Shown here in pieces: positions 1,053-28,077 of a stretch of 28,077 nucleotides of DNA. The translations under genes and the position numbers were made by a program. Under the pieces are notes generated by a model, which had not been told where the DNA came from, did no database searches, and worked only from the letters and a program-made list of their open reading frames with translations. Position 1 is the first letter of the stretch; each line of letters begins with the position of its first letter. The stretch is from a virus. The stretch lies in IMG/VR virus record IMGVR_UViG_3300009158_000160, positions 1 to 28,077 of that record. One strand, written 5' to 3'.

Positions 1053-1710
1053 ATTCGTAATCCTCCGTTGGGTTAGGTCTCTCACCCTCCCCATCAAAAA
1101 TAGTGATTGGATTTGTCCCTACCAGCGCCACCCCTGCTGGGTCCGTTTTGTGCATAGCCGCATTGTGCGAAACGATGCCCGAGAGCCGCACCGCTCCAGA
1201 GGTAGCTATCATTTGTCGGTCTGCATCATTACGCGTATCCAGTTTCAGAGTCATGCCCGTATTTGGATCTGTAAGGGAAATCATGCCATGTCCTTCGTAT
1301 TTGATCAGCGGGTATTGGCCAGTGGCTGCATCTAGCCCAATTAGGCTGGCACGCAAAGCCGCAGCGTTCACGGCTACCCGACTGCGGCCAACAAAGTAAA
1401 ATCCTAGGCCAAACCCTCCGCCCAGCAGAGCCAGGCATATAGCCGCGGTTGCAAAAACCATTGACCACCGGATAAAATCTTGCAGGCTACGCACCCATTG
1501 CGCAGAGACCTGTTCTCGCTCGGCCAGTTTCAAACCAAAATCCTGGGCATTCTGCTGACGTTGTTGCTGCTGATCGGCCGCATCCTGCTCTGCCAAAAGC
1601 CTGGTTGCATCCGCATCCGCTTGGTTGCGTGGGTCAGGCGCGCAAGTGGCCAGGCAAACTGCCAGCAAACCCACCACCATCAAGTTCTGGATGATCTTCG
1701 TCTTCCTCAC
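1042..1710 (-). CDS. Lipoprotein-like membrane protein with coiled coil
   Basis: I chose a GTG start because it overlaps the preceding gene's stop as GTGA, the coupling style used throughout this phage; this gives 222 residues. The N-terminus has Arg/Lys residues, a hydrophobic stretch and LATC (Cys23), resembling a lipoprotein signal, although Thr before the Cys is not standard. Residues about 30-75 are rich in Gln, Ala, Asp and Glu and should form a coiled coil. Residues about 82-107 are a strong membrane segment with a glycine run. The remaining C-terminal domain has no motif I recognise. Together these suggest an envelope protein with a signal or anchor, a coiled coil and a second anchor. 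A lysis (spanin-like) role was considered but the position in the early cassette does not favour it. Confidence 0.75.
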   Translation of the reverse strand: MRKTKIIQNLMVVGLLAVCLATCAPDPRNQADADATRLLAEQDAADQQQQRQQNAQDFGLKLAEREQVSAQWVRSLQDFIRWSMVFATAAICLALLGGGFGLGFYFVGRSRVAVNAAALRASLIGLDAATGQYPLIKYEGHGMISLTDPNTGMTLKLDTRNDADRQMIATSGAVRLSGIVSHNAAMHKTDPAGVALVGTNPITIFDGEGERPNPTEDYEYDN

Positions 1711-1952
1711 GATAGCCGCTCCAGTTGGTCCGAATGTTTGAAATCGCATACCAGGCATGTGAAAACATTCCAGTTCGATAAAAAGATGAGCAGGTGTGGT
1801 TGCACCTGGTGACATGCAGGGCAAAGCTCTTCCATCAGCACCGGCGGCATTTCACCGTTGCGCACCTGGTCTAAGTCTCCAAACCAGGCAATCACATGCT
1901 TCTGGGGCAGCGCTTCTCTGATCATCTCGGCAAATTGCACGTGTGCTTCCAT
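1707..1952 (-). CDS. Small zinc-ribbon protein
   Basis: 81 residues. An AAAGGAGG sequence sits seven bases before the ATG, and the ATG overlaps the previous stop as TAATG. The C-terminal half contains CPAC and, 18 residues later, CLVC: a CxxC-x18-CxxC zinc-ribbon arrangement. Such small domains commonly bind nucleic acid or another protein, but nothing shows which here. Its stop overlaps the next gene's GTG, so expression is probably coupled to the lipoprotein-like protein that follows. No assigned family. Confidence 0.75.
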   Translation of the reverse strand: MEAHVQFAEMIREALPQKHVIAWFGDLDQVRNGEMPPVLMEELCPACHQVQPHLLIFLSNWNVFTCLVCDFKHSDQLERLS

Positions 1953-2104
1953 TAGCGAGCCTCCTTTATAAATTGCACCAGCGTGGCAGCGATGGCGCGC
2001 ATACTGGCACGGTTGCGTTTGCGGTTTCGTTTTCCGCCCCGAGTCTGATACTCTTTGTAAGCCAGGCGCCAGGCGTGTTTTACAAAAGGAATGCGTGTGT
2101 CCAC
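1952..2104 (-). CDS. Small basic protein (50 aa)
   Basis: A GTG start with a strong GGAGG seven bases upstream gives 50 residues. A longer in-frame reading exists, but it would start inside the iteron region and lacks a ribosome site. The protein is very basic, with a run of Arg, Lys and Asn in its middle (GKRNRKRNR) and a short amphipathic C-terminal helix, which suggests nucleic-acid binding. It is the first gene after the iteron region and overlaps the next gene as TAATG. Function unknown. Confidence 0.6.
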   Translation of the reverse strand: MDTRIPFVKHAWRLAYKEYQTRGGKRNRKRNRASMRAIAATLVQFIKEAR

Positions 2105-2475
2105 CTTATTTCCTCCCAAAATGAACTTGATGAAGGTTCCAATGAACTTGGATGTAGAATGCAAGTTCATTAAGAACCATCAAAAAGCAGCCAGATTCGA
2201 GCTCTGCTCCGTCATTATTCTTGCATCGCAATTTTGCGCAATTCGTACCCCTTCCTTCATTAATGTTCATTTGCTTCATTAAGAAGGTGGCATGTGGGGT
2301 CTCTTTTGGGCTTAATGAACTGAATGAACATCGATGAACTTGTTTCAGAGCCCTAAAAGCATAATTAATTTGTCGATTCATGCCTTTAACTGGCCTTTTG
2401 CTGAAACAATGCAAATTAATGCCCCGATGTAGCAAATCAAGTTCATTAACTACATTTGGTTCATTAAGCAAAGTT
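2105..2475. repeat. Iteron-like repeat region, candidate replication origin
   Basis: This 371-bp stretch has no convincing gene, is AT-rich, and carries about ten copies of GTTCATTAA or AATGAACTTG in both orientations. AATGAACTTG occurs at 2120-2129 and 2141-2150, and its complement at 2162-2171, each step exactly 21 bp (two helical turns). Further copies lie at 2256-2263, 2265-2271, 2275-2283, 2311-2320, 2323-2329, 2333-2342, 2439-2449 and 2459-2467. A 9-bp inverted repeat TTGTTTCAG/CTGAAACAA sits at 2340-2348 and 2401-2409. The region lies directly behind the primase and P-loop ATPase genes. Phage and plasmid origins often have such iterons next to initiator genes, so an origin is the leading reading; an operator cluster for the downstream cassette is the alternative. 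Confidence 0.6.
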
Positions 2476-4398
2476 TTAGAATGAATACTGGTTGTCATCT
2501 GCCATCTCCGCATATCGTTCCATATCCATCTGATTGCTGGCTTTTTCAACTACCGGTTGCCTGGCTGCCAGGCCATACTTGATGCGCAGCACTTCCAGGC
2601 GTTCTTGCGCAGCGGATGGCTCGGTGGATGATTCGAGTATCACGATGTATCCGGTACCCAGGCGCTTGGTGGGCAGGCGCAGATCTTTGCGGGCAATATC
2701 TCCGATTGTTTTGGAGGATATGCCGCCTACGCCCTTCTTTTTCCCCTTGCCAGGGGCCGGTTGTTCTTCCTCTTCTTTGTCATCCTCTTTCAACAAACTC
2801 TTGGGGTCTTTGGTTTTGCCCGTGTTCATTTCATCCATTAGCAGGTTGGCCACCTTGCCCAGGTCTGGGTAACGCACATAGCGTATGTGTCCAAAGTCGC
2901 TTGTTTCGGCCTCGTGCACAAAACCCAGCTCAACAAAGCGCTTTTCTTCCAACACTGCCAGGATGGCTTCCAGGATGCGCGCTTCAAAGCTGGCGGCTTT
3001 ATCGCGCAGTTGTTCTTCATATAGCGCCAGAACCACCTTCGTTACGTTCTCCAGGGCGGTCGGATCATCCTTCACTAAAAACTTGATCGGCACCGTCACC
3101 TGGTTGGTACGGGTGCTGACACGCTCATCTTCCAGCTCTTCGGGAATCTGCACATCGGGCTGCCAGTGCTGCAGGCGCCAGCGCATATCCAGGTTGCGGA
3201 TCCGCTGGGCGGCTTCGCGCCATTCTTCATTTAGCCGCCGCGGAATTCCTCTGGCTTTCAGTTCGGCAATGTCTTTTTCGTAGCAGTCAAAGGTCACACA
3301 GCGGCTTTCAGTAGCAGGGTCGCCAAACTTGCCATACATGGTGATCAGCTTGGGCCCATATACGTTGTGCACGATCGGTTCAAAGACCGTCAGCCCATCT
3401 GCGGTTTTTACAGCGCTCATCGTCAAAATATTGGCCTGCTCTTTCATGGCGCTCACATTCAGCATGACAATGCGTTCGTCAAACTGGTCCGAGATATCCA
3501 TTTCATCCAGGAAGATCGTGCCTTTGTAAATTGAGGCAATATATTTGAGGGAGGCAGTCGAACTGATTCCGGTGGAGCGGATCAGCCGGTAACACAGGTA
3601 ACCGGTGCGCAGCATAATGGCGCTTTTGCCGGTGTCTTTATCTCCACGGGCACGTAAAAACGGCAGTTCGCCAAAGGCGTCATACACCCAGGTAAACAGG
3701 CTGTAAAATGCCGCCATTTTGTACATCAGCGGGTTATCCAGGAGAAACGAGCGGCGATAAAATGATTCGTGTATGCTGAGCAACTCGGCGGTGTCTTTCA
3801 GCTCGCCCAAGCCACTGGGGAACGTCACCACCCCGGCGCGTACAATTGCATCCACCTTGGGAACCAGGCGTTTGCCGTTGATATCCAGGTAACGCGCCTG
3901 GCCAATCTTTCCGTCTGGGTCTCGGTAGCAGAGCTCGGCTTCCTGTGCTTTTTCATCCCAGAGATAATCCACCAGCCAGCCTCGTCCGTTATCATCATTC
4001 TCCAGCGGGTACCAACCACCAAATGTGGATTCTTCCGGCAGGTCCGATTTTCGGCCGCTGCCTTTGGCTTGTTTTTTCGCACCGGTGAGCGCTGCCTGAA
4101 AATCTCGGCTGGTCATGCGCAGCTTGCGCGCCAGGCGCGTTTTGTATTTGCCCAGGGTCTTTTCATCAAGCGAGGCTGCCAGGCTGATGGCCTGATCTAA
4201 CGCTTCTTCATACTCGCTGGAGAGCGGCTCATCACCACGCGGTGCCAGCGCACCTGCCAGCTCTGCCATGTGTTCCACCAGCGGTGTGGCCAGTGTCATC
4301 ATGGCCAGCACCAGCGAGCGTTGGATCTCTGGCTGCACGCCGTCCGCCTGCCATTTCTTTACCAGGTCATTGGCGTCCACCTTTTGGTCAGTCGCCAT
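2476..4398 (-). CDS. Phage replication P-loop ATPase (helicase-like)
   Basis: 640 residues. A Walker A motif GDKDTGKS (residues 252-259) and a Walker B motif TIFLDE (294-299) show a P-loop ATPase, of the kind that works as the replicative helicase partner of phage primases (D5/DUF927-like proteins). The N-terminal 200 residues are helical and then beta-rich with no recognised motif. A low-complexity linker of acidic then Lys/Gly residues (DDKEEEEQPAPGKGKKKG) separates the ATPase from a C-terminal region of about 90 residues that reads like a winged helix (SSKTIGDIARKDLRL). The start overlaps the primase gene by 11 bases and has GAGG six bases upstream. Expected role: unwinding or loading at the phage origin, together with the primase and the iterons just downstream. 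The exact helicase superfamily is not settled from motifs alone. Confidence 0.8.
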   Translation of the reverse strand: MATDQKVDANDLVKKWQADGVQPEIQRSLVLAMMTLATPLVEHMAELAGALAPRGDEPLSSEYEEALDQAISLAASLDEKTLGKYKTRLARKLRMTSRDFQAALTGAKKQAKGSGRKSDLPEESTFGGWYPLENDDNGRGWLVDYLWDEKAQEAELCYRDPDGKIGQARYLDINGKRLVPKVDAIVRAGVVTFPSGLGELKDTAELLSIHESFYRRSFLLDNPLMYKMAAFYSLFTWVYDAFGELPFLRARGDKDTGKSAIMLRTGYLCYRLIRSTGISSTASLKYIASIYKGTIFLDEMDISDQFDERIVMLNVSAMKEQANILTMSAVKTADGLTVFEPIVHNVYGPKLITMYGKFGDPATESRCVTFDCYEKDIAELKARGIPRRLNEEWREAAQRIRNLDMRWRLQHWQPDVQIPEELEDERVSTRTNQVTVPIKFLVKDDPTALENVTKVVLALYEEQLRDKAASFEARILEAILAVLEEKRFVELGFVHEAETSDFGHIRYVRYPDLGKVANLLMDEMNTGKTKDPKSLLKEDDKEEEEQPAPGKGKKKGVGGISSKTIGDIARKDLRLPTKRLGTGYIVILESSTEPSAAQERLEVLRIKYGLAARQPVVEKASNQMDMERYAEMADDNQYSF

Positions 4399-5599
4399 CT
4401 GCCACCTCGATTAATTCATCATCAGCAGCAGCTCCTGCCAGGTTCATCTCCTGGTTTTCCCATTTCAACAGTCTGGTCATAGGTCCAAAGGTGGCACCCA
4501 CGGTGGCAAGAGCTTCGCGGCCTGCCTTGTCGTTATCGAGCGCCACATATTTCAGCGCTACTTTATCCAGCAGCTTGCCCAGGTCCTTATTGGCAGCCAC
4601 ACCGCACAAGGCTACCGAGGCAATTCCAAGTTGACCCAGGCTGATTGCATCGCCAGGACCTTCCACGACCACCACTTTATCGGCATTGCGGTGAAACTCA
4701 TGGTTGAAGTAAAACTGCCGGTCCCCGACCAGCACCCCGGGAAGGTTGTAACTCTTGGGCTTGGACCGGCCGATTAGGCGCACCTGCTCGGGATGCTCTT
4801 TCAGCATGGACCAGCCAAACGGCACCGAATCCAGGCGGCTGGCCCATTCCAGGCGCCGCCCGCTGAAATACATTACCCTGCCCCTCCAGATGTGCGGGTA
4901 AACCAGGCAGGGCATGCTGGCCAGGCCCCAAATGCGGTCATCCTCTATCCAGTCCGGCGATCCATCCATAATTCCCTGGGATGTCAGCCAGGCGCCCACA
5001 TTGCCGCGCATGCCCACCAGTGAGACAGTAGCAGCATCGCGCAGGTTCACTTCGTGCATGGATAATTCGCCCACCAACTCGTTGACTGCCTCAAAGGTGC
5101 CACCGCTGAAGCCCAGTCGGGCAGCGCGCATGGTTTCTTCGGTCCAACCGCGCGATTGGGCATATTCCAAAGCAGCAGGAGTGGCGAATAACTGGCGCTC
5201 AAACCACCCGCAGGCAATCTCAAAGACCTGTGCCCGGCTCTTCTGGTTTTTCGCGGTTTCGGTGTTGTCGTCGCGCTTCCACTCTGGCACCTTCACCGAA
5301 TAAAGCTCTGCCAGCCAGAGAGCCGCCTGCCAAAAATCCGGTTTCCCCCCATGTTTCTGCAGCCAGGTAAAGACATCGCCGGTTTCATATTGGTGCCCGT
5401 CAGATCCGCCCTTGGCAAACCAGGTGTACTGGCCCCAATCGGGGTCCACAACCAGGCTATCCGGATGGATGCATTTGACAAAGCGGCCACTACGCCGGGT
5501 ATCAAAGCGATATTCGCTGGTCTTCTGGATGACTTCCACCAGATCTACCTTGTCCTTCAGCGTCTCGATAAACTTTTCCAATTCGCGTCGATTATCCAT
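4388..5599 (-). CDS. DnaG-like primase (TOPRIM) with degenerate zinc site
   Basis: 403 residues. The TOPRIM signature is clear: EGPGD at 313-317 and DND at 355-357 supply the metal-binding acidic residues of DnaG-type primases. The N-terminus aligns by pattern with the CHC2 zinc domain, but where family members have Cys-x2-His and later Cys-x2-Cys, this protein shows KCIHPD (Cys43, His45) and WFAKGG (60-65), so most zinc ligands are missing. It probably makes RNA primers for phage replication, with origin or template recognition altered or passed to a partner. An AAGGA site precedes the ATG. It is the first gene after a 333-bp repeat-rich gap and overlaps the ATPase gene, so the two are co-translated. 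Confidence 0.85.
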   Translation of the reverse strand: MDNRRELEKFIETLKDKVDLVEVIQKTSEYRFDTRRSGRFVKCIHPDSLVVDPDWGQYTWFAKGGSDGHQYETGDVFTWLQKHGGKPDFWQAALWLAELYSVKVPEWKRDDNTETAKNQKSRAQVFEIACGWFERQLFATPAALEYAQSRGWTEETMRAARLGFSGGTFEAVNELVGELSMHEVNLRDAATVSLVGMRGNVGAWLTSQGIMDGSPDWIEDDRIWGLASMPCLVYPHIWRGRVMYFSGRRLEWASRLDSVPFGWSMLKEHPEQVRLIGRSKPKSYNLPGVLVGDRQFYFNHEFHRNADKVVVVEGPGDAISLGQLGIASVALCGVAANKDLGKLLDKVALKYVALDNDKAGREALATVGATFGPMTRLLKWENQEMNLAGAAADDELIEVADGD

Positions 5600-5691
5600 A
5601 AACGTTTCCTTAAAATTGCTAAATTTTTGAGCGGCACTCGCCGGGCCACCCTGGGCAATCCGATTGAAAGGTGGGGTGCCGTTCGATCATG

Positions 5692-5797
5692 ATGTTATGC
5701 GTCCAAAAAAAGCGCGCCTAATGTTGTTTTTTGAGCATCAAACAGCCTGTTTGTTGCCAAAGTTGGACGCATAACATTAGTTCTACGTCCAACTTTG
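5692..5797. repeat. Nested inverted repeats in the gap upstream of the primase operon
   Basis: The 333-bp gap from 5600 to 5932 has no convincing gene. Within it, ATGTTATGCGTCCAA (5692-5706) is repeated perfectly inverted at 5763-5777, CAAAGTTGGACG (5758-5769) is repeated inverted as CGTCCAACTTTG (5786-5797), and between them lies the palindrome CAAACAG-C-CTGTTTG (5739-5753). The shared core is GGACG/CGTCC, three copies. The likely job is binding of a regulator, the replication proteins or a recombinase upstream of the primase. No clear sigma-70 promoter is visible in the gap. Confidence 0.65.
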
Positions 5798-5932
5798 CCC
5801 GGCGCCGAAGCGTTTTTCCCAGGGTGCGCGCCCCTGCGCCAGCACGCAAGCAAAAGTGAACTTGCCGATTCTTACTACTACTGGTATCGATGACACCCGG
5901 CGCAGGGTACAGGCTGGTACACATGGGCGGCC

Positions 5933-6214
5933 TCAGTCCCAACGGTGCGCCTGGCCATCGCGCCAGTACTTGCCCAGGCTGTGGTGCAGGATGGCCAGGC
6001 GCTGCATAACCTGGCTCAACCGTTCGGCTGCTGGCTGCAACACAGGCTTTGTTTCTGCAGCAGTGCGGCTGGCTTGCTCCAGGCGCATGGCAATCTCTTC
6101 CATATCCAACATGGCACGGTATATATTTGCCAGGGCATCTTCAACCGGATCTCTGCGCGCCTTGGCTCCTTCGCACAGATCCCCCAATGGATTGTTACTG
6201 TATCGCCCTGGCAT
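5933..6214 (-). CDS. Hypothetical protein (93 aa), early operon
   Basis: The start was set at an internal ATG with AAGGAGAGGG just upstream, rather than at a longer reading that would overlap the preceding gene. The resulting 93 residues are mostly helical, with heptad-like Leu/Ala spacing (DMEEIAMRLEQ and AERLSQVMQRLAIL), consistent with a coiled-coil or four-helix accessory protein. No catalytic motif is seen. It is the last gene before the inverted-repeat gap and the primase, so a role in replication or regulation is possible but not shown. Confidence 0.6.
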   Translation of the reverse strand: MPGRYSNNPLGDLCEGAKARRDPVEDALANIYRAMLDMEEIAMRLEQASRTAAETKPVLQPAAERLSQVMQRLAILHHSLGKYWRDGQAHRWD

Positions 6215-6225
6215 AATCCCTCTCC

Positions 6226-6918
6226 TTATTCTTCGGCGTACATACGGCCAGCCAGGCCCTGGATGGCGCATGCATGATAGTGCTCCGCCCACCAGGCACA
6301 CTGCGTGCGCAGGCACCGGCCGATGGAGTTTTCTCCCATGTGCAGCAAGGGGCAGAAGAGTGCAGGCTCTTCCACAACTGGCTTGGGTTCCCTGGCCTTG
6401 CGGTTGCGCTCATCCGCCTGGGCCTGCGCGATATCTTTGTTGTTGCCTATTTCCAGTGCGTCAATCAAAACGCCATCAAAATTGGAATATCCCGGGCCAA
6501 CCCGAATGTCTACCACCCACTCTTCCGAATCATGATCTTGGACCGGTTCATAATGGCAAACCAGGAATGGCAAGTTGTATCGTCTGTTATCTTCTTCGAT
6601 CCAAATATCTGTAACCGCGCATTCGTCAGACATTTCCACGCGCACAATCGCTAAAATAGGAGCGGCTGTGGGTATGGATACCAGGAGCGCTGCGTGTTCA
6701 TGTTTGTTGCTATTGGTAAAGTAATCCTGCCACCCATGCCAGGATATGCACTCAGCTACTCCAGCAGGGAATATGGCTTTTGCAAGCTCAACTATCCTGT
6801 CGCTGTTAGCAATATCCAGATCTAATGCCACCTTCTCTTTTGTTTCTAATTCCTCTTTCCTCCTGCGCATACGCTGATCTGCGACGCTAAGCAATTGTGC
6901 CAATTCGTTACTCATCAT
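6226..6918 (-). CDS. Hypothetical protein with C-terminal cysteine cluster (CAWW type)
   Basis: 230 residues from an ATG with AAGGAG six bases upstream. The N-terminal 30 residues are charged and helical; residues about 40-150 form a mixed domain with a hydrophobic core and many acidic residues. The last 45 residues carry a Cys pattern FCPL, GRCLRTQCAWW and HACAI (four Cys plus His). I know this type of C-terminal motif from many uncharacterised phage and prophage proteins, where it presumably binds zinc or an iron-sulfur cluster. The metal and function are unknown. It lies in the early operon between the frameshifted small gene and the 93-residue gene. Confidence 0.7.
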   Translation of the reverse strand: MMSNELAQLLSVADQRMRRRKEELETKEKVALDLDIANSDRIVELAKAIFPAGVAECISWHGWQDYFTNSNKHEHAALLVSIPTAAPILAIVRVEMSDECAVTDIWIEEDNRRYNLPFLVCHYEPVQDHDSEEWVVDIRVGPGYSNFDGVLIDALEIGNNKDIAQAQADERNRKAREPKPVVEEPALFCPLLHMGENSIGRCLRTQCAWWAEHYHACAIQGLAGRMYAEE

Positions 6919-6933
6919 GTTCTGCTCCTTGTC

Positions 6934-7235
6934 CTAATACTGATTGGCTAAATTATTCAACTCACTGCGATAAGAGTTTTCTTGTAGTTCAACCTCTTCC
7001 CAGGCATCTTGGTCAATCAATTCTTCAATTTGATTGCGCACCAGCTCAGCCAGCATGGCAGGCTCCACAGCATCCAGCTCCCAAGAAGACTCTCCATCTT
7101 CCTTTCCAAAATAAAGACCAGGTCTTTTGTCACTTCGCGGATGCGCAGACCGTGCGCATCCATGTACTGCTGTAAATCTTCCAACGGCACACTGATACTC
7201 TTGCCCTCCGCGGGCAAAGGCAGTGTGGGCTTCAT
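6934..7235 (-). CDS. Small acidic protein, probably interrupted by a one-base frameshift
   Basis: Two overlapping frames together look like one gene of about 98 residues. From the ATG at 7235, coupled as ATGA to the stop of the 31-codon gene, the first 45 codons look normal (KSISVPLEDLQQYMDAHGLR). That frame then turns into an implausible Trp/Cys-rich tail. The frame one base back reads ESSWELDAVEPAMLAELV and ELIDQDAWEEVELQENSYRS to a stop at 6934, which looks genuine but has no sensible N-terminus. The switch would fall near 7101-7115, at a four-base T run on the coding strand. It may be an inactivating mutation, an assembly error or an unusual programmed shift; no classical slippery heptamer is visible. 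Family unknown. Confidence 0.5.
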
Positions 7236-7327
7236 AGCGCAAACCCGAGAAAGAAACCTACCAAAATGCCCAGCATGATCACCAGGCCCACGGTCAAAAT
7301 AAAATCGCGCAGAGATGCAGATTGCAT
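7232..7327 (-). CDS. 31-residue single-helix membrane peptide
   Basis: An ATG with GGAAGG six bases upstream opens a 31-codon frame. The first eight residues are polar, followed by about 23 hydrophobic residues (ILTVGLVIMLGILVGFFLGF), a perfect single membrane helix with glycines. Its stop overlaps the next ATG as ATGA, and it starts two bases after the 40-codon gene's stop. The ribosome site, coupling and hydrophobicity together argue that it is real. A holin-like or regulatory small membrane protein is possible; function unknown. Confidence 0.6.
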   Translation of the reverse strand: MQSASLRDFILTVGLVIMLGILVGFFLGFAL

Positions 7328-7329
7328 GG

Positions 7330-7452
7330 CTAACCTTCCTTGCCGCGCATTATGCGGAAAGCTGGCCGCTTGTTGCCTTGAGATTTTGTCCATCGCCCGG
7401 CGGTGATCACATCCAGGACCTTATCCATCAAAATCAAAAATAGCTCCACCAT
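7330..7452 (-). CDS. 40-residue peptide coupled to the recombinase gene
   Basis: The ATG overlaps the recombinase stop as TGATG and has GGAGG seven bases upstream, inside the recombinase's last codons. The product has a hydrophobic N-terminal helix (VELFLILMDKVLDVI) and a basic C-terminal half (KSQGNKRPAFRIMRGKEG). It could be a recombination directionality factor or accessory peptide by position, but it has no recognisable motif, so that is speculation. Confidence 0.5.
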   Translation of the reverse strand: MVELFLILMDKVLDVITAGRWTKSQGNKRPAFRIMRGKEG

Positions 7453-8348
7453 CACAGCACCTCCGCCAGCTTCTCAAGATCTGCGTAATGCGGCAGGGTG
7501 TAACGGCGTGTCACTTCCAGGCTGCTGTGGCCCAAAAAGGCTGCCACCTCTGGCAGGCTGGCCCCGCCCTTTATCAGTTGGTGCCCGGCCGTGTGGCGCA
7601 GCTGGTGAGGGGTTACATGCCCAATCTGCGCATCGCTGGCCAAACCTGCCACCAGCTTCTGTATCCCGCGCTCCTGGAGGGGCTCTCCAAACTTGCCAAT
7701 AAAGACAGTCTCACCTTGGGCAGGTCGCACAGCCAGCCAGGCACGCAGCGCCTGGGCGGCCTCGTAACCGAGCGGAATCACCCGGTCTTTGTTGCCCTTG
7801 GTGTTGACCACTTCAATCCGGCCGGTGCGTTCACCCAGCAGCACATCCCGCAGGCGCAGGCGGGCCACTTCTCCTTCGCGCATGCCAGCCTGCCACAGGC
7901 ACGCCACCACAGCGGCATCACGCAGTGCTTTGCGCCTGGCAGCCGGTGTCCTGGCTGTGCGCACCTGCTCATTCACAGTCAAGCGTAGGCGTTTGTGTTC
8001 TGGCTTGGCCAGGCTGCGCGGGGCCAGCTTCTGGGCTTCGGCGCGTGTCAGGGTATCGCTCGGGTCATAGTCCACTTGCTTGGTGCTTTGCAGCCAGCTG
8101 GCAAAGACTGCCAGGCTGGCCACCGAGCGGTTCCAGGTGGCTGCCTTCAGCTGCAGCTCATCGCGGCAATAGCGTTGGTACTCGCGCAGATCCGCGCGGT
8201 TATACATGCTGAGCGCCCAGGCCTGGGCATACTCGCCTTCGCTCCAGCGCACAAAGCGCGCCAGGTCATTGCAATAGGCTTCCACTGTGCGCTCTGCGCG
8301 ACCCTGCTCACGTAGATGGTTGGCAAACTTATTCAGCATCGCGTTCAT
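7452..8348 (-). CDS. Tyrosine recombinase (XerC/D-like integrase)
   Basis: 298 residues, the usual length for Xer-type recombinases. An N-terminal SAM-like DNA-binding domain (about 1-95) is followed by the catalytic domain with the complete active site: Arg157 (AGMREGE), Lys184 (TKGNKDR), His248 and Arg251 (HQLRH), His274 (LGHSS) and the nucleophile Tyr283 (RRYTLP). It should catalyse site-specific strand exchange through a 3'-phosphotyrosine link. It is embedded in the early minus-strand operon, coupled as ATGA to the gene before and TGATG to the gene after, so it would be made in the lytic or early phase. Possible jobs are excision, multimer resolution or integration. A separate serine recombinase lies in the lysogeny block. 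Confidence 0.92.
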   Translation of the reverse strand: MNAMLNKFANHLREQGRAERTVEAYCNDLARFVRWSEGEYAQAWALSMYNRADLREYQRYCRDELQLKAATWNRSVASLAVFASWLQSTKQVDYDPSDTLTRAEAQKLAPRSLAKPEHKRLRLTVNEQVRTARTPAARRKALRDAAVVACLWQAGMREGEVARLRLRDVLLGERTGRIEVVNTKGNKDRVIPLGYEAAQALRAWLAVRPAQGETVFIGKFGEPLQERGIQKLVAGLASDAQIGHVTPHQLRHTAGHQLIKGGASLPEVAAFLGHSSLEVTRRYTLPHYADLEKLAEVL

Positions 8349-8695
8349 TTCGTCAGCTCCAACCCAAAGGCCTTACGCAAAATATCGAGCTGCTTTTGGC
8401 TCCAGGCGGTGTGATACCCATCTGGCATGCGGCGCATGCTCATGCAAAAATTACGGCAAGCCGTGCCCACATGCTGGGGCGGCAGGTTATTTATGCCCGT
8501 CAGCGGAATGAGGTCCTGCAGGGATGCGATCCAATAAGCCCGGCCGTTCTCGTCTGCGCCGCTTGTGGGGTGGGCGCTGCTCCACATGATTAGCGCTCTG
8601 ACAATCGCTTTGTGTGTTTCGTAAGAGGGGATTGTTACCTTCGGCGCCTCGTCCTCCAGCGCCGCCAAAACTGATGATTCCAAGATCCTTGCCAT
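8345..8695 (-). CDS. Hypothetical protein (116 aa) preceding the recombinase
   Basis: The start was chosen at an internal ATG with AAGGAGAG seven bases upstream. The product is 116 residues, mixed helical, with a C-terminal WSQKQLDILRKAFG segment that resembles a small helix-turn-helix. Its stop overlaps the recombinase ATG as ATGA, so the two are translated together. A DNA-binding accessory role is plausible but unproven; family not recognised. Confidence 0.65.
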   Translation of the reverse strand: MARILESSVLAALEDEAPKVTIPSYETHKAIVRALIMWSSAHPTSGADENGRAYWIASLQDLIPLTGINNLPPQHVGTACRNFCMSMRRMPDGYHTAWSQKQLDILRKAFGLELTK

Positions 8696-8936
8696 TTTCG
8701 TGCTCTCCTTCCAGTAGAGTTCCACTTGCATCGGTCAACTGCCCGCGGCAGTCCTGTGCTATGCTGTTTTTATAGGGCTGATCAATCTCGCTTTTTTTCT
8801 CTCCTTCTGCCATCTCGAGCTGTGCTTTGCGCATGTACTCACTGATGATCCCCATGGCATATTCCCAGGCCGCCCGCTGTTCAGCGGGTAGCGCTACGAA
8901 CTGCCTCTCGAGGTTCATCGTGAGCTTGCGTGCCAT
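8487..8936 (-). CDS. Hypothetical protein (149 aa) whose 3' half overlaps the next gene
   Basis: The N-terminal 60 residues look genuine: basic and helical, with NLERQFVALPAEQRAAWEYA and an amphipathic EYMRKAQLEMAEGEKK segment. From about residue 82 the frame runs through the next gene in a different phase for 209 bases and becomes Gly/Arg/Pro-rich, like a shadow frame. The ATG lies a few bases past the previous gene's stop, with a weak ribosome site, suggesting coupling. Either the true stop was lost by mutation, giving an extended tail, or the overlap is real. The gene is likely; its C-terminus is doubtful. Confidence 0.5.
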   Translation of the reverse strand: MARKLTMNLERQFVALPAEQRAAWEYAMGIISEYMRKAQLEMAEGEKKSEIDQPYKNSIAQDCRGQLTDASGTLLEGEHENGKDLGIISFGGAGGRGAEGNNPLLRNTQSDCQSANHVEQRPPHKRRRRERPGLLDRIPAGPHSADGHK

Positions 8937-9291: not shown

Positions 9292-9319
9292 AGTATAAGC
9301 AAATTGTACAATTTGTCAA
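9292..9319 (-). promoter_or_regulatory. Early-operon sigma-70 promoter
   Basis: On the minus strand, TTGACA (9319-9314) and TATACT (9297-9292) are separated by 16 bases: a consensus -35 and a five-of-six -10. The start of transcription should be near 9285, giving a short leader to the 99-residue gene. It lies in the divergent gap facing the repressor gene and is the best promoter in the window. Confidence 0.8.
9300..9315. promoter_or_regulatory. Palindromic operator in the early promoter spacer
   Basis: CAAATTGTACAATTTG is a perfect 16-bp palindrome filling the spacer of the early promoter and touching its -35 box. A dimeric helix-turn-helix repressor bound here would block RNA polymerase. 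The repressor gene 50 bp away is the obvious candidate binder. A second, looser inverted repeat CTTTGTATA/TATACAAAG (9249-9257 and 9285-9293) flanks the predicted start site. Confidence 0.7.
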
Positions 9320-9366
9320 GTGTATTAAACAGAATAAGTAATGAGTTATTCGGAGAAGATACGATA

Positions 9367-9747
9367 ATGTTGACTATGATAGACAATTTGTTTAGTTTCC
9401 TGAACTGGTTAAATCAACTAATGGCCGAGAAAAACATTACTCAGGCCGATATTGCGCGTACTGAATTTGTCACCAGGGGAGCGGTAAGCGCTTTATTCTC
9501 AAATCGGATCAAATCTGTAGGCGTGGATATGTGCCGGGCAATCTCCGCGGCCACGGGTGTCCCCCTCAAGATCGTCTATGAAAAAGCCGGGCTTCTGCCA
9601 CCCAGCGCGGAAGATCCAGATCAGGCTGAAATAGATTCGTTGCTTTCCCAGCTAGAGCCGGACCTCAGGCAGCAGGCCAAAGACTACCTGTACATGTTGG
9701 GAGAAAAACAGGCCAAACGTCGCCGCCTTTCATCCTCGCCCCGCTAA
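9367..9747 (+). CDS. Cro/CI-family phage repressor (short, no protease domain)
   Basis: The start was placed at the ATG after GGAGAAGAT, giving 126 residues. Residues about 19-75 form an XRE-type helix-turn-helix (NITQADIARTEFVTRGAVSA, then a VGVDMCRAISAATG helix and the IVYEKAGLLPP tail typical of this family). The C-terminal 50 residues are helical and end in a basic patch (KQAKRRRL). There is no LexA/CI-like serine protease domain, so RecA-driven self-cleavage is unlikely and induction must use another route. It should bind the palindrome in the divergent early promoter and keep the prophage silent. Confidence 0.85.
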   Translation: MLTMIDNLFSFLNWLNQLMAEKNITQADIARTEFVTRGAVSALFSNRIKSVGVDMCRAISAATGVPLKIVYEKAGLLPPSAEDPDQAEIDSLLSQLEPDLRQQAKDYLYMLGEKQAKRRRLSSSPR

Positions 9748-9749
9748 AT

Positions 9750-10049
9750 ATGCGTCTTGACCCCGATTTGCTGTTCTTATTCAAAATCTATTTGCGCTGC
9801 CTGTTGGTCTACCAAATGCTGCGCAAGGGATTTTTTGCTTTAACGCCCCATCTACAATTTTCAGCCCCCACCCATGAGCGCACACCGGTCGTGCTGGCGC
9901 GCGTCCTGGTAGGTATGACGGTGGTCCTCACCGCCGCGCTCTCCAGCATCCACACCCAGCCCGGCCTGCTCCTCACCATCCCTGCCTACGCCCTCTACAC
10001 CAGCCTCGTTCTGGTCATCCGCCAGCAAAAGTTGAATGCCATGGCATAA
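9750..10049 (+). CDS. Small two-helix membrane protein next to the repressor
   Basis: 99 residues, starting two bases after the repressor stop with no own ribosome site, so probably translated by coupling. Residues about 48-66 (VLARVLVGMTVVLTAAL) and 72-90 (LLTIPAYALYTSLVLVI) are clear membrane helices; the N-terminus (LLFLFKIYLRCLLVYQML) is also hydrophobic. Proteins in this position in temperate phages can be superinfection-exclusion factors made in the lysogen. That role is inference from location; no family is recognised. Confidence 0.6.
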   Translation: MRLDPDLLFLFKIYLRCLLVYQMLRKGFFALTPHLQFSAPTHERTPVVLARVLVGMTVVLTAALSSIHTQPGLLLTIPAYALYTSLVLVIRQQKLNAMA

Positions 10050-10075
10050 AAAAAGCCCACCTGGTGAAGGTGGGC
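10048..10075 (-). terminator. Terminator-like hairpin facing the repressor operon
   Basis: GCCCACC (10055-10061) pairs with GGTGGGC (10069-10075) across a 7-base loop. The U-tract lies only in the minus direction (seven As on the plus strand at 10048-10054), and it begins in the stop codon of the membrane-protein gene. It would stop antisense transcripts coming from the kinase region rather than the plus-strand operon. Confidence 0.6.
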
Positions 10076-10139: not shown

Positions 10140-10940
10140 ATGAATATACCTGCCATTCCAATTATCACACCGGTTTCTGTCGGAAAGGCTAAAAGCAGCG
10201 GACGCACACGTCCACTTGAAATGCAATGCCAATCCGAAGCAGGCATACAAGCTTATATTGTCAAACTTTGGAATACCAACGAACTTGGCTTAGGTGTTCA
10301 CAGCTTAGCCCGTGAAATCTACGGCTCACTCTTGGCAAACTACTTCGATCTATTAACCCCTAAAATTGCCCTGGTTAATATTGAAACTGATTTTTTTATG
10401 AGCCAGACAGATCCAGAGATCCATGAACGTTTGAGAATCAGTCCAGGGTTAAGTTTTGGCAGTCTTTACATCCATAAAGCGCCCATTTTCAACCAACCAT
10501 TGCCTTCGAATAAAATCTCTGAAGCAACCAAAATTTATTGTTTTGACATGCTGATTGGAAATGTTGATCGCAATGATTCGAAACCAAACATGTTACAAAA
10601 TTCGGAGGGATTTATCTTGATCGATCACGAAAAAGCTTTCCCTTACTCCAGGCCGACCATGTTATTGGGCGGCTATCCCAGCCCGTGGCAATTCATTACT
10701 GAAAACTGGTCCCGCCAACATGTTTTTTATCCTTACATCAAAGGTAAAGCCCACCTTCTCGACATCGAAGAGTTTGTGGCAATACTCGGTACTCTGTCAG
10801 AAGAAATTTTTGCTACAATTGAAATGCAGATACCCAGCGAATGGATTACCCCCGACTTGTACCCATTGAAAACTTACCTTGCAAATACTCGGGATAATGC
10901 GCAGTTGTTCAAGAGAAGCTTGCAGGAGCTATTAGCATGA
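10140..10940 (+). CDS. HipA-like kinase family protein
   Basis: 266 residues from the ATG; a GTG 12 bases upstream is an alternative start. The kinase-like signature is visible: a possible ATP-binding Lys42 (YIVKLWN), a conserved Glu59 (AREIYGSL), the catalytic loop GNVDRNDSKPN with Asp143 and Asn150, and the metal-binding Asp162 in LIDHEKAF. This matches the HipA_2-type single-chain kinases, shorter than full HipA (about 440 residues) and lacking its N-terminal lobe. It would phosphorylate an unknown protein target. Its stop overlaps the DUF3037-like gene as ATGA, and the pair is AT-richer than its neighbours, so it is probably cargo. There is no HipB-like antitoxin next to it. Confidence 0.75.
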   Translation: MNIPAIPIITPVSVGKAKSSGRTRPLEMQCQSEAGIQAYIVKLWNTNELGLGVHSLAREIYGSLLANYFDLLTPKIALVNIETDFFMSQTDPEIHERLRISPGLSFGSLYIHKAPIFNQPLPSNKISEATKIYCFDMLIGNVDRNDSKPNMLQNSEGFILIDHEKAFPYSRPTMLLGGYPSPWQFITENWSRQHVFYPYIKGKAHLLDIEEFVAILGTLSEEIFATIEMQIPSEWITPDLYPLKTYLANTRDNAQLFKRSLQELLA

Positions 10941-11812
10941 CCACAAAATCCCAATTCCAATTTAGTGTTCTACACTATATTCACGATTCGTTTACCGGAG
11001 AATTCCTGAACATTGGTCTGGCGTTCTATTCAGCATCCCCAGTTTTCTTTCATGCCAGATTTTTGCACAAGTATGCTCGCCTAACCGCCACCTTCCCAGA
11101 TGCAGATAGCGAATTGTTACGAAGTTACATCAGTCGCATGCAATCTAAAGCTGATGAATTGAGTGAGAATATCAACGATCAACAGATTTCATTCATTTCG
11201 CCCCCGCCTGTCCAGATCGAAGAACTGCTTGTCCAGATTTTGCCGGTGGACGATTCCGCTATTCAGTTTGGAAAAGCACAAGGTGGATTAACCGACAATC
11301 TGGAAAAAACCTTTGAAGATCTCTATCTCCGCCTGGTGGAAACTTACTTGCCGCACAATCAGACTTCCTCACGTGATGAAGCCCAGATCTGGATGGTTTT
11401 TAGCAAACATTTGAAAAACCAAAACGTCATCAGCCGCTTAAGGCCCACTATCATACATGCGCCTAAAGCTGACGTCGAATTCAAACACGCCTGGAAAAAC
11501 GGGCATTGGAAAGCCATGCAGCCGGTTTCCTTTGACTTATTACACGCTGGCAGTATTAAAGATAAAGCTTTTCAATACCTTGGAACCAATGTTGTTCTAG
11601 GAGATAGCAAAGATTTTGGAAAACTTTACTATTTGCTTGGGAAGCCTCGCCGCAACGACAGCAATCTACTAATGGCCTATAACAAAGCCAAAGATCTATT
11701 GGGTACTGGCTCTACTGCCAAGAAAATCGAGCTGATCGAAGAAGATGGCGCGGAAGATTTTGCCCGCTTTGTCAGTCCTCAAATAGAAAAAGATACCTCG
11801 CACGAAGAATAA
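10937..11812 (+). CDS. DUF3037-like protein, partner of the HipA-like kinase
   Basis: 291 residues. The N-terminus (FQFSVLHYIHDSFTGEFLNI-GLAF) has the pattern I know from DUF3037 proteins: a short beta strand, then Gly-Glu-Phe-x-Asn-x-Gly. The rest is helical with a second alpha-beta region (residues about 180-250) and no catalytic motif I can name. It overlaps the kinase gene by four bases and is followed by a terminator, so the two form a closed two-gene unit. DUF3037 genes are often found beside HipA-like genes, so it may be the antitoxin, regulator or substrate of the kinase. That partnership is inference; the family's molecular role is not established as far as I know. Confidence 0.7.
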   Translation: MTTKSQFQFSVLHYIHDSFTGEFLNIGLAFYSASPVFFHARFLHKYARLTATFPDADSELLRSYISRMQSKADELSENINDQQISFISPPPVQIEELLVQILPVDDSAIQFGKAQGGLTDNLEKTFEDLYLRLVETYLPHNQTSSRDEAQIWMVFSKHLKNQNVISRLRPTIIHAPKADVEFKHAWKNGHWKAMQPVSFDLLHAGSIKDKAFQYLGTNVVLGDSKDFGKLYYLLGKPRRNDSNLLMAYNKAKDLLGTGSTAKKIELIEEDGAEDFARFVSPQIEKDTSHEE

Positions 11813-11849: not shown

Positions 11850-11880
11850 AGCGTCAGGCTAAATCCTTGACGCTTTTTTT
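11850..11880 (+). terminator. Rho-independent terminator after the HipA-like/DUF3037 pair
   Basis: AGCGTCAGG pairs with CCTTGACGCT (one bulged T) across a 6-base loop, followed by seven Ts. It closes the two-gene cargo unit and lies only 18 bases before the serine recombinase ATG. Confidence 0.8.
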
Positions 11881-11898: not shown

Positions 11899-13536
11899 AT
11901 GGCCCCCTTCAAACTCAACCCACCCCCCGTAGACCTATTGCCTGGTTCCCAAATCTACGCCTATTTGCGCGACTCAGGCCACGAAACCCAGGAACTATCC
12001 ACCCAGCAGCAAAAGAACAGCCTGAGCGAATGGGCCAGCCAATACGGCCTGGTCATCGCCCGCTTCTATATCGACGAAGCCCGGCGCGGATCTACCACCG
12101 GCCGTGACCAGCTCCAGGAGCTCATGCACGATCTGCGCCATGCGGCACCGGTCAAGGCCGTCGTCGTCTGGTCTTACAATCGCTTCAGCCGCGGCCTGGA
12201 TGATCCCGTTCTTTACCGCGCCGAAGTGCGCACCCTTGGCTATACTTTCCACAGCCTCACAGACGACGTGCCCGAAGGACCCATCGGGCGCATCGTAGAA
12301 GCGGTCATCGATTACAAAAATTACCAGTACCTCAAAGACCTCTCCATCGATATCCGTCGCGGCCAGCGCGAGCTGGTGCAGCAATATGGCTGCATCCCTG
12401 GCACACCGCCCGCGGGCTTCAAGCGCACACCGGTCACCCTTGGCCAGCGCCGTGATGGCACCCCACACATTGCCCATCGTTGGGCACCCGACCCAGCCGC
12501 AGCGCCCCTGGTGCTCAAAGCCTTCCAAATGCGCGCGGCCGGTGCGCCGCTGCTGGATATCATGCACGCCACCGGTATCTATAATAGTCTGAGCAGTTTT
12601 GTTTCATTCTGGCCTAACAAGCTGTATATCGGCATCCTGGAATTCTCCGACCTGGTCATTGAAAATTATTGCGAGCCCATCGTGCCCATCGAATTGTGGA
12701 ACGCGGTCCAGGAGGTTCAGGTGCGTTTTAAGAAGTCACAGCATGTCAACAGCGATAAGGACCACCCCAGGCGGGCTCACAGCCGTTATCTGCTCTCCGG
12801 CCTGCTGCATTGCGCCAGGTGTGACGCGCCGGTCAACGGCAATACATCCACCAGCCGGGGCAAGCGTGCCACAGATACCTATGCCTGTGCCAACCTGCGC
12901 AAGCACACCTGCTCTGCCAGGCGCATTCCCAGGGAACAGTTGGAATCAGCCGTATTTGATGCGATTGCCACCCACATCCTGGATCCGGATATCGCCAGCG
13001 CGCGCCAGGAGCTGGATGCCCAGACGTATGCAGCCGATCAGAGCGCGAATGCCGATCAGCGCAAACAATCCAACCAACGCCTGGCGAAGCTGCGCGCGCA
13101 GATCCGCAACATTACCGCGGCCATCAAAGCCCATGGCCATTCGAATGCCCTGCTGAGCGCGCTGGTGGACCTCGAGCACCAGGAAACTGTGCTGCAGGCA
13201 GAGCTGGCCCAATCCGCGCGCATTCCGCTTAGCCTGCCCCGCCTCAGCCCGTCCGAGCTGGCCGACCAGGCCGCCATCGCCATCAAATTGCTGCAGAACG
13301 GCACCCAGGAAGAAAAGCGCGCTGTGCTGCGTGGTCTTATTTACAGAATAAAGGTCGAAAACATCGATAAGCAAATCAAAGGAATTGTCTTTTTCTACTC
13401 CCCCACCGGCATAAATACAGAACATCCTCCCCCAAATACAGTGTCAATAGTTCGCCTTCCACCTGGGGCACCTCGCTATATACACAATATTGATTTTTTC
13501 GTCTCGTTCAAGAAAAAGACCCGCTTACCAAAATAA
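11899..13536 (+). CDS. Large serine recombinase (phage integrase type)
   Basis: 545 residues, the length of large serine integrases. The N-terminal resolvase domain (about 17-155) has YLRDSG with nucleophile Ser26, the TTGRDQ segment and NRFSRGL with the catalytic arginines (Arg95, Arg98). A recombinase domain follows (about 165-290), then a zinc ribbon with CARC and two later Cys (about 313-350), then a long coiled coil (about 370-440) of the kind that governs synapsis in integrases. It should integrate the phage at an attB by 2-bp staggered cuts. The gene shows normal codon use and ends inside the shared terminator hairpin. The ribosome site is weak. It lies in the lysogeny block with the repressor, but phage genes flank it on both sides. 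Confidence 0.92.
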   Translation: MAPFKLNPPPVDLLPGSQIYAYLRDSGHETQELSTQQQKNSLSEWASQYGLVIARFYIDEARRGSTTGRDQLQELMHDLRHAAPVKAVVVWSYNRFSRGLDDPVLYRAEVRTLGYTFHSLTDDVPEGPIGRIVEAVIDYKNYQYLKDLSIDIRRGQRELVQQYGCIPGTPPAGFKRTPVTLGQRRDGTPHIAHRWAPDPAAAPLVLKAFQMRAAGAPLLDIMHATGIYNSLSSFVSFWPNKLYIGILEFSDLVIENYCEPIVPIELWNAVQEVQVRFKKSQHVNSDKDHPRRAHSRYLLSGLLHCARCDAPVNGNTSTSRGKRATDTYACANLRKHTCSARRIPREQLESAVFDAIATHILDPDIASARQELDAQTYAADQSANADQRKQSNQRLAKLRAQIRNITAAIKAHGHSNALLSALVDLEHQETVLQAELAQSARIPLSLPRLSPSELADQAAIAIKLLQNGTQEEKRAVLRGLIYRIKVENIDKQIKGIVFFYSPTGINTEHPPPNTVSIVRLPPGAPRYIHNIDFFVSFKKKTRLPK

Positions 13537-25969: not shown

Positions 25970-26095
25970 CTCATCTCCTGGGGTAGTCCCACAAATAGCG
26001 CAGGACTTGCTTGATATATCCTTATTTTACAATAAAACTAATAAATTTAAAAGGACCCAAACAAATAAAAAAAGACCTGGTATCGAGATAATTAA

Positions 26096-26410
26096 TCATT
26101 TATTCTTTTCCAACTTATCCAAAAACGCATCTATTTCTTCGGGATATCTGTAGTTCTTTGCCAATATTTCTGGCTTCAATTTCTTAGTTCTTTTTATCAA
26201 ATCTATGAAAATATTTAATTGCGTTGCAGTCAAATTCTCATAGCTTTTTTCCAAAATAACCAAGATATAGGTATGTAGTAATAAAGCCCAATCCGTACTC
26301 ATCAAATCAAATTGGCGATCTGAAGCGCCCATTTCTAAATCCTCTTCAAAATCATCCAACTCATTTTGTATACTACTCAACAATCCTTCAATGTCTATTA
26401 TCGTATCCAT
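26096..26410 (-). CDS. Second candidate immunity protein (paralogue)
   Basis: 104 residues with AAGGA six bases before the ATG. It is acidic, small and helical. It is clearly related to the protein encoded just before it: the C-terminal 34 residues align without gaps with about 16 identities (common pattern DL-KR-K-LK--IL-K-Y-YP--I). Both genes are AT-rich compared with the capsid genes. Duplicated, diverged immunity genes behind a toxin are typical of polymorphic toxin systems, where extra copies protect against related toxins. Family not recognised; the role is inference from the position behind the MuF-toxin and before a terminator. Confidence 0.7.
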   Translation of the reverse strand: MDTIIDIEGLLSSIQNELDDFEEDLEMGASDRQFDLMSTDWALLLHTYILVILEKSYENLTATQLNIFIDLIKRTKKLKPEILAKNYRYPEEIDAFLDKLEKNK

Positions 26411-26481
26411 AAATCATCCTTAACTTCTTTCAAAATATATTCCTTTTCAAATGTCAATCATTACTCAGTCTAGCCAATATA

Positions 26482-26787
26482 TTAAATATCAACTTTTTCA
26501 ATCACATCCGGGTACTCATAACCCTTCTGTAGAATGTAAGCTTTAAGGATTTTCAACCGCTTTACTAAGTCTCGTAGTTGATTTATTTGGCCTGAATTTA
26601 GTTCGTCCTTGTGCTTAATTAAGGCTTCAATATCTCCTACCATTAAAAAATACCAGTCAAATTTATTGATTTCCCATTCAGCATCAAGAATTTTCTCCCC
26701 ATATTCAATGCGTTCCTCAAACGCTTCTATTTCTGCGCTTGAGGTGCGTAAGCATGAGTCAATATTTATTTTAATTTCCGCAACCAT
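26482..26787 (-). CDS. First candidate immunity protein, overlapping the toxin gene
   Basis: 101 residues. Its ATG lies 22 bases inside the end of the toxin domain gene, with AGAGG just upstream, so it is co-translated with the toxin. It is acidic and helical (AEIEAFEERIEYGEKI, then INKFDWYFLMVGDIEALIKH), with no membrane segment, fitting a cytoplasmic inhibitor that binds the toxin domain. The overlap, AT-richness, size and duplicated neighbour make it the best candidate for the cognate antidote. No named family is recognised. Confidence 0.75.
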   Translation of the reverse strand: MVAEIKINIDSCLRTSSAEIEAFEERIEYGEKILDAEWEINKFDWYFLMVGDIEALIKHKDELNSGQINQLRDLVKRLKILKAYILQKGYEYPDVIEKVDI

Positions 26788-28077
26788 ATAACCTCTTTTA
26801 GACTATTTAAAAACGCTTCTATTTCTTTTTCAATTATATGCCCACTTACCCATTTTTTGCGGCTTAACCGATACACAGTCCCAATAAATTGAACTTCATT
26901 ATTTACAAGGATGCTACCAATAAATAGATATTCTTTTTCGCCAAGCATGCTCGCAGATATTATCGCACCGTGAGGGTCTAAAATTGATTTGCGTAAATAG
27001 CCAACATAGTCATTGTAAGATGTATCTATAGGCCAATACGAGCTTTTACGAACATGGCGAAGATAATGTTCATACCCCGTATGCATCATTTCTCCGCGAT
27101 GCAGTATCTCTCCATTTACCTCAACACCCTCATATTTTTGTTTGACAATAATATTCTTAACTTCATCAAACCCAACTTCTGCGATCTCCCTTTTCAACGA
27201 TTCAATTTCCGCCGGAGTCAAATTCGTATTTCCCCAGGCATACGAACTGACTGGTACTTGGATCGCCACCTGGTTTGTTCCTGCCCCAGATCCAACCCGG
27301 CCGGGTTGGCTTACTCCAGCAACAGCCGCCATCCCAACATTCCCAGCTCCAGAAGCTGCTTTTCCTGCGGTTTTTTGCGCCACCCCACCAGCCCCAACCG
27401 GTTTCCAATAACTTCCCCAGGTATCATCCTGGTGAAACTTTACCAGGTCGCGCACGTCCAGCCCTTTGTTCTGCCACTTCTCAAATACCCCCGGCCCGAG
27501 AATCGATTGCTGCATGGTTTTGCTTTGCTTCAAAAACCACTCTTCCCCGGTCTCCCAGGTGGGCTCATCCTCCCCATCCACGCACGGCACCAGCGTGCAC
27601 CTCCCGTTCGGATGATCCTCCAGCGGCACATCGATCGGATACTTCTTCCCATCTTCCAGCAGGCAGGCAATACACGTCCTTTCGCTCTTCGCCGCCAGGC
27701 GCTTGTAATAATGCACCAGCCCGCTGGCCTCATACGCCATGCGCGTCGAAGTCCGCATCGCCCTCAGTTGCTCTGTCCTGGCAACCCGCAAAGCCCGCTC
27801 ATACCCCAGCGCCAGCCCATCGCGCATGGCCCTGGCCGTCTTGACCGGGTTCCAGCCCTGGGTGATGGCCTGGCCCAGCTTGCTCACAATCCCATCCACA
27901 GCATCGATGCTCAACCCCGCCAGGTACTCCTGCAGGGTGCCGCCATCCGCCGTCATACCGGCCATGATCTCGAAGGTGCGCACCGGCAGGCGATTGAAGC
28001 TCACACCCAGTTGTTTGTCGGCCGCCTGCCAACTATCCACCGCGATCTCCAGCTTGCGCCTGGCGATCAGGTCGGCC
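26766..28077 (-). CDS. MuF-type minor head protein with C-terminal toxin-like domain, 5' end outside the window
   Basis: The frame is open to the right edge (at least 436 residues); residues below are counted from the GTG at 28040. Residues about 1-160 are the Mu gpF (MuF) C-terminal region: a helical segment (RALRVARTEQLRAMRTSTRM), then Cys123-x2-Cys126, EDHPNGRC (His143, Cys148) and Cys153. A Gly/Ala/Val-rich linker (about 215-265) leads to an AT-rich last 150 residues with GYEHYLRHVRKSSYW, a YNDYVGYLRKS helix and a VQFIGTVYRLSRKKWVSGHI strand pair. Alternating helix and strand with His325, His329 and Lys/Arg-rich ends suggest a BECR-type ribonuclease domain like those attached to MuF proteins, but this is inference. 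MuF proteins are injected with the DNA or sit at the portal, so the toxin could be delivered by the virion. Confidence 0.82.
   Translation of the reverse strand, partial: ADLIARRKLEIAVDSWQAADKQLGVSFNRLPVRTFEIMAGMTADGGTLQEYLAGLSIDAVDGIVSKLGQAITQGWNPVKTARAMRDGLALGYERALRVARTEQLRAMRTSTRMAYEASGLVHYYKRLAAKSERTCIACLLEDGKKYPIDVPLEDHPNGRCTLVPCVDGEDEPTWETGEEWFLKQSKTMQQSILGPGVFEKWQNKGLDVRDLVKFHQDDTWGSYWKPVGAGGVAQKTAGKAASGAGNVGMAAVAGVSQPGRVGSGAGTNQVAIQVPVSSYAWGNTNLTPAEIESLKREIAEVGFDEVKNIIVKQKYEGVEVNGEILHRGEMMHTGYEHYLRHVRKSSYWPIDTSYNDYVGYLRKSILDPHGAIISASMLGEKEYLFIGSILVNNEVQFIGTVYRLSRKKWVSGHIIEKEIEAFLNSLKEVIWLRKLK

Follow-up and report, generated by a model that had tools for sequence, protein, structure and literature searches.

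A putative HipAD anti-phage gene pair in the cargo slot of an uncultivated, siphovirus-like phage

The window analysed here, a stretch of 28,077 bases, is a whole virus record, although the record itself is possibly a phage fragment. Searches against Pfam and PHROG revealed an HK97-type capsid gene, a tape measure, tail genes, a primase-like gene and two recombinases, and the phage from which the sequence derives is uncultivated and siphovirus-like. The features that concern us are located in and around its lysogeny region:

7452..8348, minus strand: XerC/D-like tyrosine recombinase of the lysogeny region (Pfam Phage_integrase, E=2.6e-33)
9304..9747, plus strand: Cro/C1-type HTH protein, the phage's own repressor, at the left edge of the cargo slot and outside HipAD (Pfam HTH_3, E=0.0012, sub-threshold; phrog_3 transcriptional repressor, E=3.5e-7)
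10055..10075, minus strand: terminator-like hairpin just 5' of the pair, with its T run reading leftward (sequence scan)
10140..10940, plus strand: HipA_2-family kinase (HipAD kinase / PDC-M66A), putative toxin/effector, ATG start, 266 aa (Pfam, PADLOC, PHROG)
10937..10940, plus strand: ATGA start/stop overlap of the kinase and DUF3037 genes (4 bp; translational coupling), found family-wide (sequence, junction table)
10937..11812, plus strand: DUF3037-family partner (HipAD D / PDC-M66B), putative antitoxin and regulator or sensor, 291 aa (Pfam, PADLOC, PHROG)
11850..11874, plus strand: intrinsic (rho-independent-type) terminator-like hairpin followed by a T run, closing the pair (sequence scan)
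11899..13536, plus strand: large serine integrase, 545 aa, at the right edge of the cargo slot (Pfam Resolvase and Zn_ribbon_recom)

The initial annotation had described a kinase/DUF3037 pair at 10140-11812, overlapping by four bases, lying in the lysogeny block, AT-richer than its neighbours and closed by its own terminator, and the analysis agreed on every one of these points. Both genes are present and share the ATGA at 10937-10940, with an AGGAG Shine-Dalgarno-like motif a few bases 5' of it; they lie between the repressor, which together with a small downstream ORF spans 9304-10049, and the large serine integrase. The hairpin at 11850-11874 reads in the direction of the pair, while the one at 10055-10075 would end antisense transcripts and would not shield the plus strand. 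A consensus scan found no strong promoter-like site ahead of the pair, and overall it returned 9 sites against 5.4 ± 2.3 expected, which was not significant. We infer that the two genes are co-expressed in this phage. Both recombinases, the tyrosine recombinase (7452-8348, minus strand) and the large serine integrase (11899-13536, plus strand), are kept in the phage and in its relatives.

The GC content of the pair was 43.1%, compared with 56.2% for the recombinase-repressor block to its left, 57.8% for the integrase to its right and 50.9% for the whole record, and only 4.5% of the equal-sized windows of this record were as AT-rich. Composition alone is nevertheless no proof of foreign origin, because the pair and the tape-measure gene of the phage itself have equal third-position GC (43-46% and 45%, respectively), and an argument for foreign origin on this ground was dropped. 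A separate, sharp AT-rich dip (30-36% GC), unlike the remainder of the phage, was seen at positions 26001-27000, between a putative Mu-F-like gene and the capsid region.

The kinase matched Pfam HipA_2 with 61.3 bits (cut-off 27; E=1.1e-16), phrog_3162 and, over nearly its full length, the PADLOC model PDC-M66A (E=4.4e-48), which was also matched by all 39 homologous kinases sampled; Pfam HipA_C gave no match to it at E<=0.1. In the alignment, residues K42, E59, N141, D143, R144, N150, D162 and H163 were invariant across 39 homologues, and by analogy with HipA-type kinases we take them to have catalytic roles. The AF2 model (pLDDT 90.6) was that of a compact two-lobed kinase, which corrects the earlier description of it as single-lobed. 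The best PDB match of this model was CtkA (3akk; E 2.5e-4, TM 0.50, 12% identity), and PI4KIIα was also similar. Single-sequence searches of the PDB found no match for either protein, and profile searches against the PDB gave chance-level matches only, such as that of the kinase to actin-fragmin kinase (1cja, E 0.13). Identity between the window pair and the sampled relatives was low, about 22-41%.

The second protein matched Pfam DUF3037 with 55 bits (cut-off 22.6; E=1.2e-14), phrog_5137 and, again over nearly its full length, PADLOC PDC-M66B (E=5.6e-65). Its C-terminal half is conserved family-wide, with a predicted secondary structure of a helix, three strands, a helix and a strand. Residue 195, inside the conserved C-terminal motif, is Q in the window protein and E in 37 of 38 aligned relatives. 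The AF2 model (pLDDT 89.3, pTM 0.60) had no significant match among solved structures; its weak Foldseek matches cluster on PD-(D/E)XK nucleases (Card1, E 0.03; Mus81-Eme1; BspD6I2), none of them significant alone, and a viral DUF1828 protein appeared among the BFVD matches, likewise insignificant alone.

The two families are found together far beyond this phage. In a sample of 55 genome-contig relatives, drawn from bacterial genomes by DUF3037 similarity, the kinase gene lay directly 5' of the DUF3037 gene in 49, and nearly all the junctions had the same NTGA overlap. Two of the six exceptions had short kinase remnants only, and the rest were beside other genes (domain names read by eye from the sequences), for example type I restriction genes in L061, a PIN-like gene in L018 and, in L009, a SIR2-like/ATPase pair. 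Since this sample had been picked by DUF3037 similarity, a separate scan was run on 299 Pseudomonadota genomes, in which each Pfam model was scanned separately. DUF3037 was present in 17 genomes, with an adjacent HipA_2 gene in 16 of them; HipA_2 scored above the Pfam cut-off in 16 of the 299 genomes and was beside DUF3037 in 16/16 (Fisher P about 1e-25, or about 2e-24 without the centre genome G007, one of the 299, which had been found through DUF3037). The HipA_2-DUF3037 pairing is thus close to obligate, and the recurrence that the initial annotation had mentioned, proposing a co-occurrence search, was borne out in both samples.

The kinase and DUF3037 identity matrices of 35 shared loci were strongly correlated (Mantel r 0.88; maximum of 999 permutations 0.22). 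This correlated divergence shows co-inheritance rather than contact, because common descent of the operon suffices to explain it. A tblastn search of 50,697 phage records detected no relatives of the pair, whether the window proteins or a single relative served as queries. Plasmids gave three DUF3037 matches, and in the single annotated record (Hymenobacter) a HipA family kinase was directly upstream with a 4-bp overlap.

Three observations touch on the diversity of the DUF3037 family. Where no HipA kinase is adjacent, DUF3037 genes adjoin a DUF1828-like gene (L061, 6928-8140, plus strand), the PIN-like gene (L018, 7607-8849, plus strand) and the SIR2-like/ATPase pair (L009, 4736-8861, plus strand), a hint that conflict systems may make repeated use of DUF3037 as a partner. 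A test for a link between DUF3037 and the DUF1828-like gene beside it in L061 was negative. A second, shorter DUF3037 form, with open frames of about 130-210 aa, is also paired with HipA_2 in five genomes (G315, G062, G113, G121 and G125); the system therefore has at least two architectures.

Most relatives of the pair were outside phage records and often adjoined restriction-modification genes. The nearest large genes were inspected in 21 genomic neighbourhoods, some of them related so that the counts are not fully independent. Five of these genes were type I methyltransferases, where about 0.06 were expected in the roughly 0.27 Mb examined, given that strong N6_Mtase matches number 24 in about 113 Mb of the same genomes. 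In Paracoccus lutimaris (L036), four plus-strand genes (4497-6062, 6059-7219, 7216-8004 and 8001-8858) occupy, in order, the type I methyltransferase position, the probable specificity-subunit position, the HipA_2 kinase and DUF3037. Because consecutive genes overlap by 4 bp at each junction, HipAD in this bacterium looks like an integral part of a type I restriction operon.

In phages, the site held by the pair was compared through relatives of the serine integrase, 36-62% identical, which were found in five phage records. The slot of L082 and L083, from the repressor module to the integrase, contained a type IV methyl-directed restriction enzyme over two ORFs (33-40% GC) and a 118-aa ORF, with no HipAD. 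The restriction enzyme ORFs (4121-5607, plus strand; 358 and 130 aa) cover successive parts of PADLOC PDLC03663, as either a natural split or a frameshift would produce. The L093 slot (6026-8396, plus strand) carried the gene of an N6_N4 DNA methyltransferase and, after it, that of a DUF3800 protein with a match to PDC-M04A, and we regard these two genes as a candidate phage-borne defence pair. The L084 and L092 slots encoded DUF4236 proteins, which to our knowledge are not known as defence proteins. Past the serine integrase, L092 also has a reverse transcriptase (RVT_1) adjoining a tail-like gene, possibly a diversity-generating retroelement; the loci noted in this record, its slot included, are 1107-2159 (plus strand) and 4156-4932 (minus strand).

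The repressor and its small ORF were present without the pair in L082, L083 and L092. Defence-type cargo occupied the slot in three of five lineages, counting L082 and L083 as one and including the window. Judged by gene content, the slot is a hotspot for cargo and is biased towards defence, and since other cargo, partly of defence type, fills it in related phages, the HipAD pair is exchangeable defence cargo, in keeping with the earlier proposal of prophage cargo. Such turnover supports the idea that fixed cargo sites are where temperate phages exchange defence modules.

The initial annotation knew of no assigned function and offered an anti-phage or toxin-antitoxin role as a hypothesis. The former statement is outdated, as the pair has been published and named (PDC-M66 / DS-6 / HipAD), and the latter matches experiments on homologues (PMC12548924, PMC13092281). 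In the Retron-Sda1 operon, a construct without the HipA kinase no longer defended against phage Bas51 and one without the DUF3037 gene was toxic, whereas the retron parts were dispensable (PMC12548924). The DefensePredictor study found that a HipA kinase/DUF3037 pair, DS-6, renamed HipAD, gives phage defence, which was lost when a predicted catalytic kinase residue of DS-6A was mutated; AlphaFold3 predicted a complex of DS-6 A and B (ipTM 0.76-0.79) and a weaker DNA contact of DS-6B (PMC13092281). That study credits the name HipAD to Brenes & Laub 2025, an E. coli prophage defence paper, in which DS-6/HipAD was reportedly found independently.

We consider it probable that the window pair is a phage-encoded HipAD that acts as an abortive defence of the toxin-antitoxin type, shielding the lysogen, and hence the prophage, from other phages. 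In an uninfected cell, the DUF3037 protein, made by coupled translation at the ATGA overlap, would bind the kinase and keep it inactive. Infection by a competing phage would disturb this complex and free the kinase, which would use ATP (through K42, D143, N150 and D162) and phosphorylate an essential protein of the host or the phage; the analogy with HipA points to translation as the probable target process. Growth would then stop ahead of progeny production, so that phage replication would be aborted. Defence, the kinase requirement and toxicity upon DUF3037 loss have been shown in homologues and would apply here by analogy; the activity of the window pair, its trigger and its substrate are what we infer, as is the binding of DNA by its DUF3037 protein.

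The weak nuclease matches, together with the predicted DNA contact of DS-6B, suggest a DNA-reading role for the DUF3037 protein. A more specific version of this idea, to which we give rather little credence, is that its C-terminal half resembles a PD-(D/E)XK nuclease, perhaps with altered catalysis, and binds nucleic acid; by sensing phage DNA or DNA damage, this domain would release the kinase. The order of predicted helices and strands and the viral DUF1828 match would also fit this reading. If true, HipAD would be a DNA-sensing kinase system, not a simple toxin-antitoxin pair.

Other functions could be imagined for a kinase and its partner at this position. The pair could be an addiction or lysogeny-maintenance module, that is, a toxin-antitoxin system mainly punishing prophage loss with little or no anti-phage effect, as its location between repressor and integrase and the toxin-antitoxin behaviour of a homologue, toxic upon DUF3037 loss (PMC12548924), would allow; however, homologues defend against phage (PMC12548924, PMC13092281). 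Moreover, the occurrence of most relatives outside phage records, often by restriction-modification genes, and the restriction-type cargo that fills the slot instead in related phages make a maintenance role unlikely. Phage kinases modifying host proteins are known, and a phage-encoded kinase might phosphorylate a host factor during lytic growth to the benefit of this phage, as counter-defence or host take-over. We think this very improbable, because the pair lies on the plus strand of the lysogeny region with its own terminator, away from the minus-strand structural genes, and the pair also occurs widely, both in bacterial chromosomes and in defence neighbourhoods.

The least probable arrangement, and one that we would hardly expect, is a canonical HipAB-type toxin-antitoxin system in which the upstream HTH gene (9304-9747) acts as HipB. 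HipB is a Cro/C1-type HTH protein, and a gene of this type does lie 0.4 kb upstream of the kinase, but another ORF and a hairpin separate the two. Besides, the kinase lacks a Pfam HipA_C match, and its conserved partner is DUF3037. The HTH gene was rejected as a HipB because it recurs as the core phage repressor in L082, L083 and L092, which are without the kinase and its partner; no HipB-like gene adjoins the kinase, and the absence of a HipB-type antitoxin noted previously therefore stands. A HipAD-type abortive defence remains our preferred explanation.

The closest known systems share both components with the window pair. In HipAD/DS-6, as here, a HipA-like kinase with conserved catalytic residues is combined with a DUF3037 protein and no HipB. 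DS-6B is described as carrying DUF1829 (PMC13092281), which Pfam found neither in the window protein nor in 37 relatives scanned, the comparison being one of descriptions; in addition, the window pair belongs to an uncultivated, siphovirus-like phage and has no close relative in the phage records searched. Retron-Sda1 has the same two families adjacent, and its pair is a stand-alone defence with the kinase as toxin and DUF3037 as neutraliser. It also has retron parts, whereas no reverse transcriptase beside the window pair was matched among the proteins scanned with Pfam and PHROG, the neighbours with matches being recombinases, the repressor and tail genes.

More distant systems are alike mainly in principle. 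E. coli HipAB resembles the window pair, by analogy, in having a kinase toxin neutralised by a cognate partner, but the window kinase is compact (266 aa) and without HipA_C, its partner is DUF3037 and not an HTH HipB, and the toxin gene comes first. CtkA of H. pylori (PDB 3akk/3akl) is the best solved-structure match to the kinase model, yet it is only 12% identical.

The central hypothesis is already published; what is new is chiefly the phage lineage and the slot in which it carries cargo. HipAD had been known from bacterial chromosomes and from work on E. coli prophages, and it is now placed in a distant environmental phage; the alignments narrow down the HipAD residues worth testing. PADLOC PDC-M66 (phage defence candidate M66) is defined by the two models that both window proteins match, and no difference from it was detectable. 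On the evidence of sequence, the window pair is a real, intact and distant member of the known anti-phage system HipAD/PDC-M66/DS-6.
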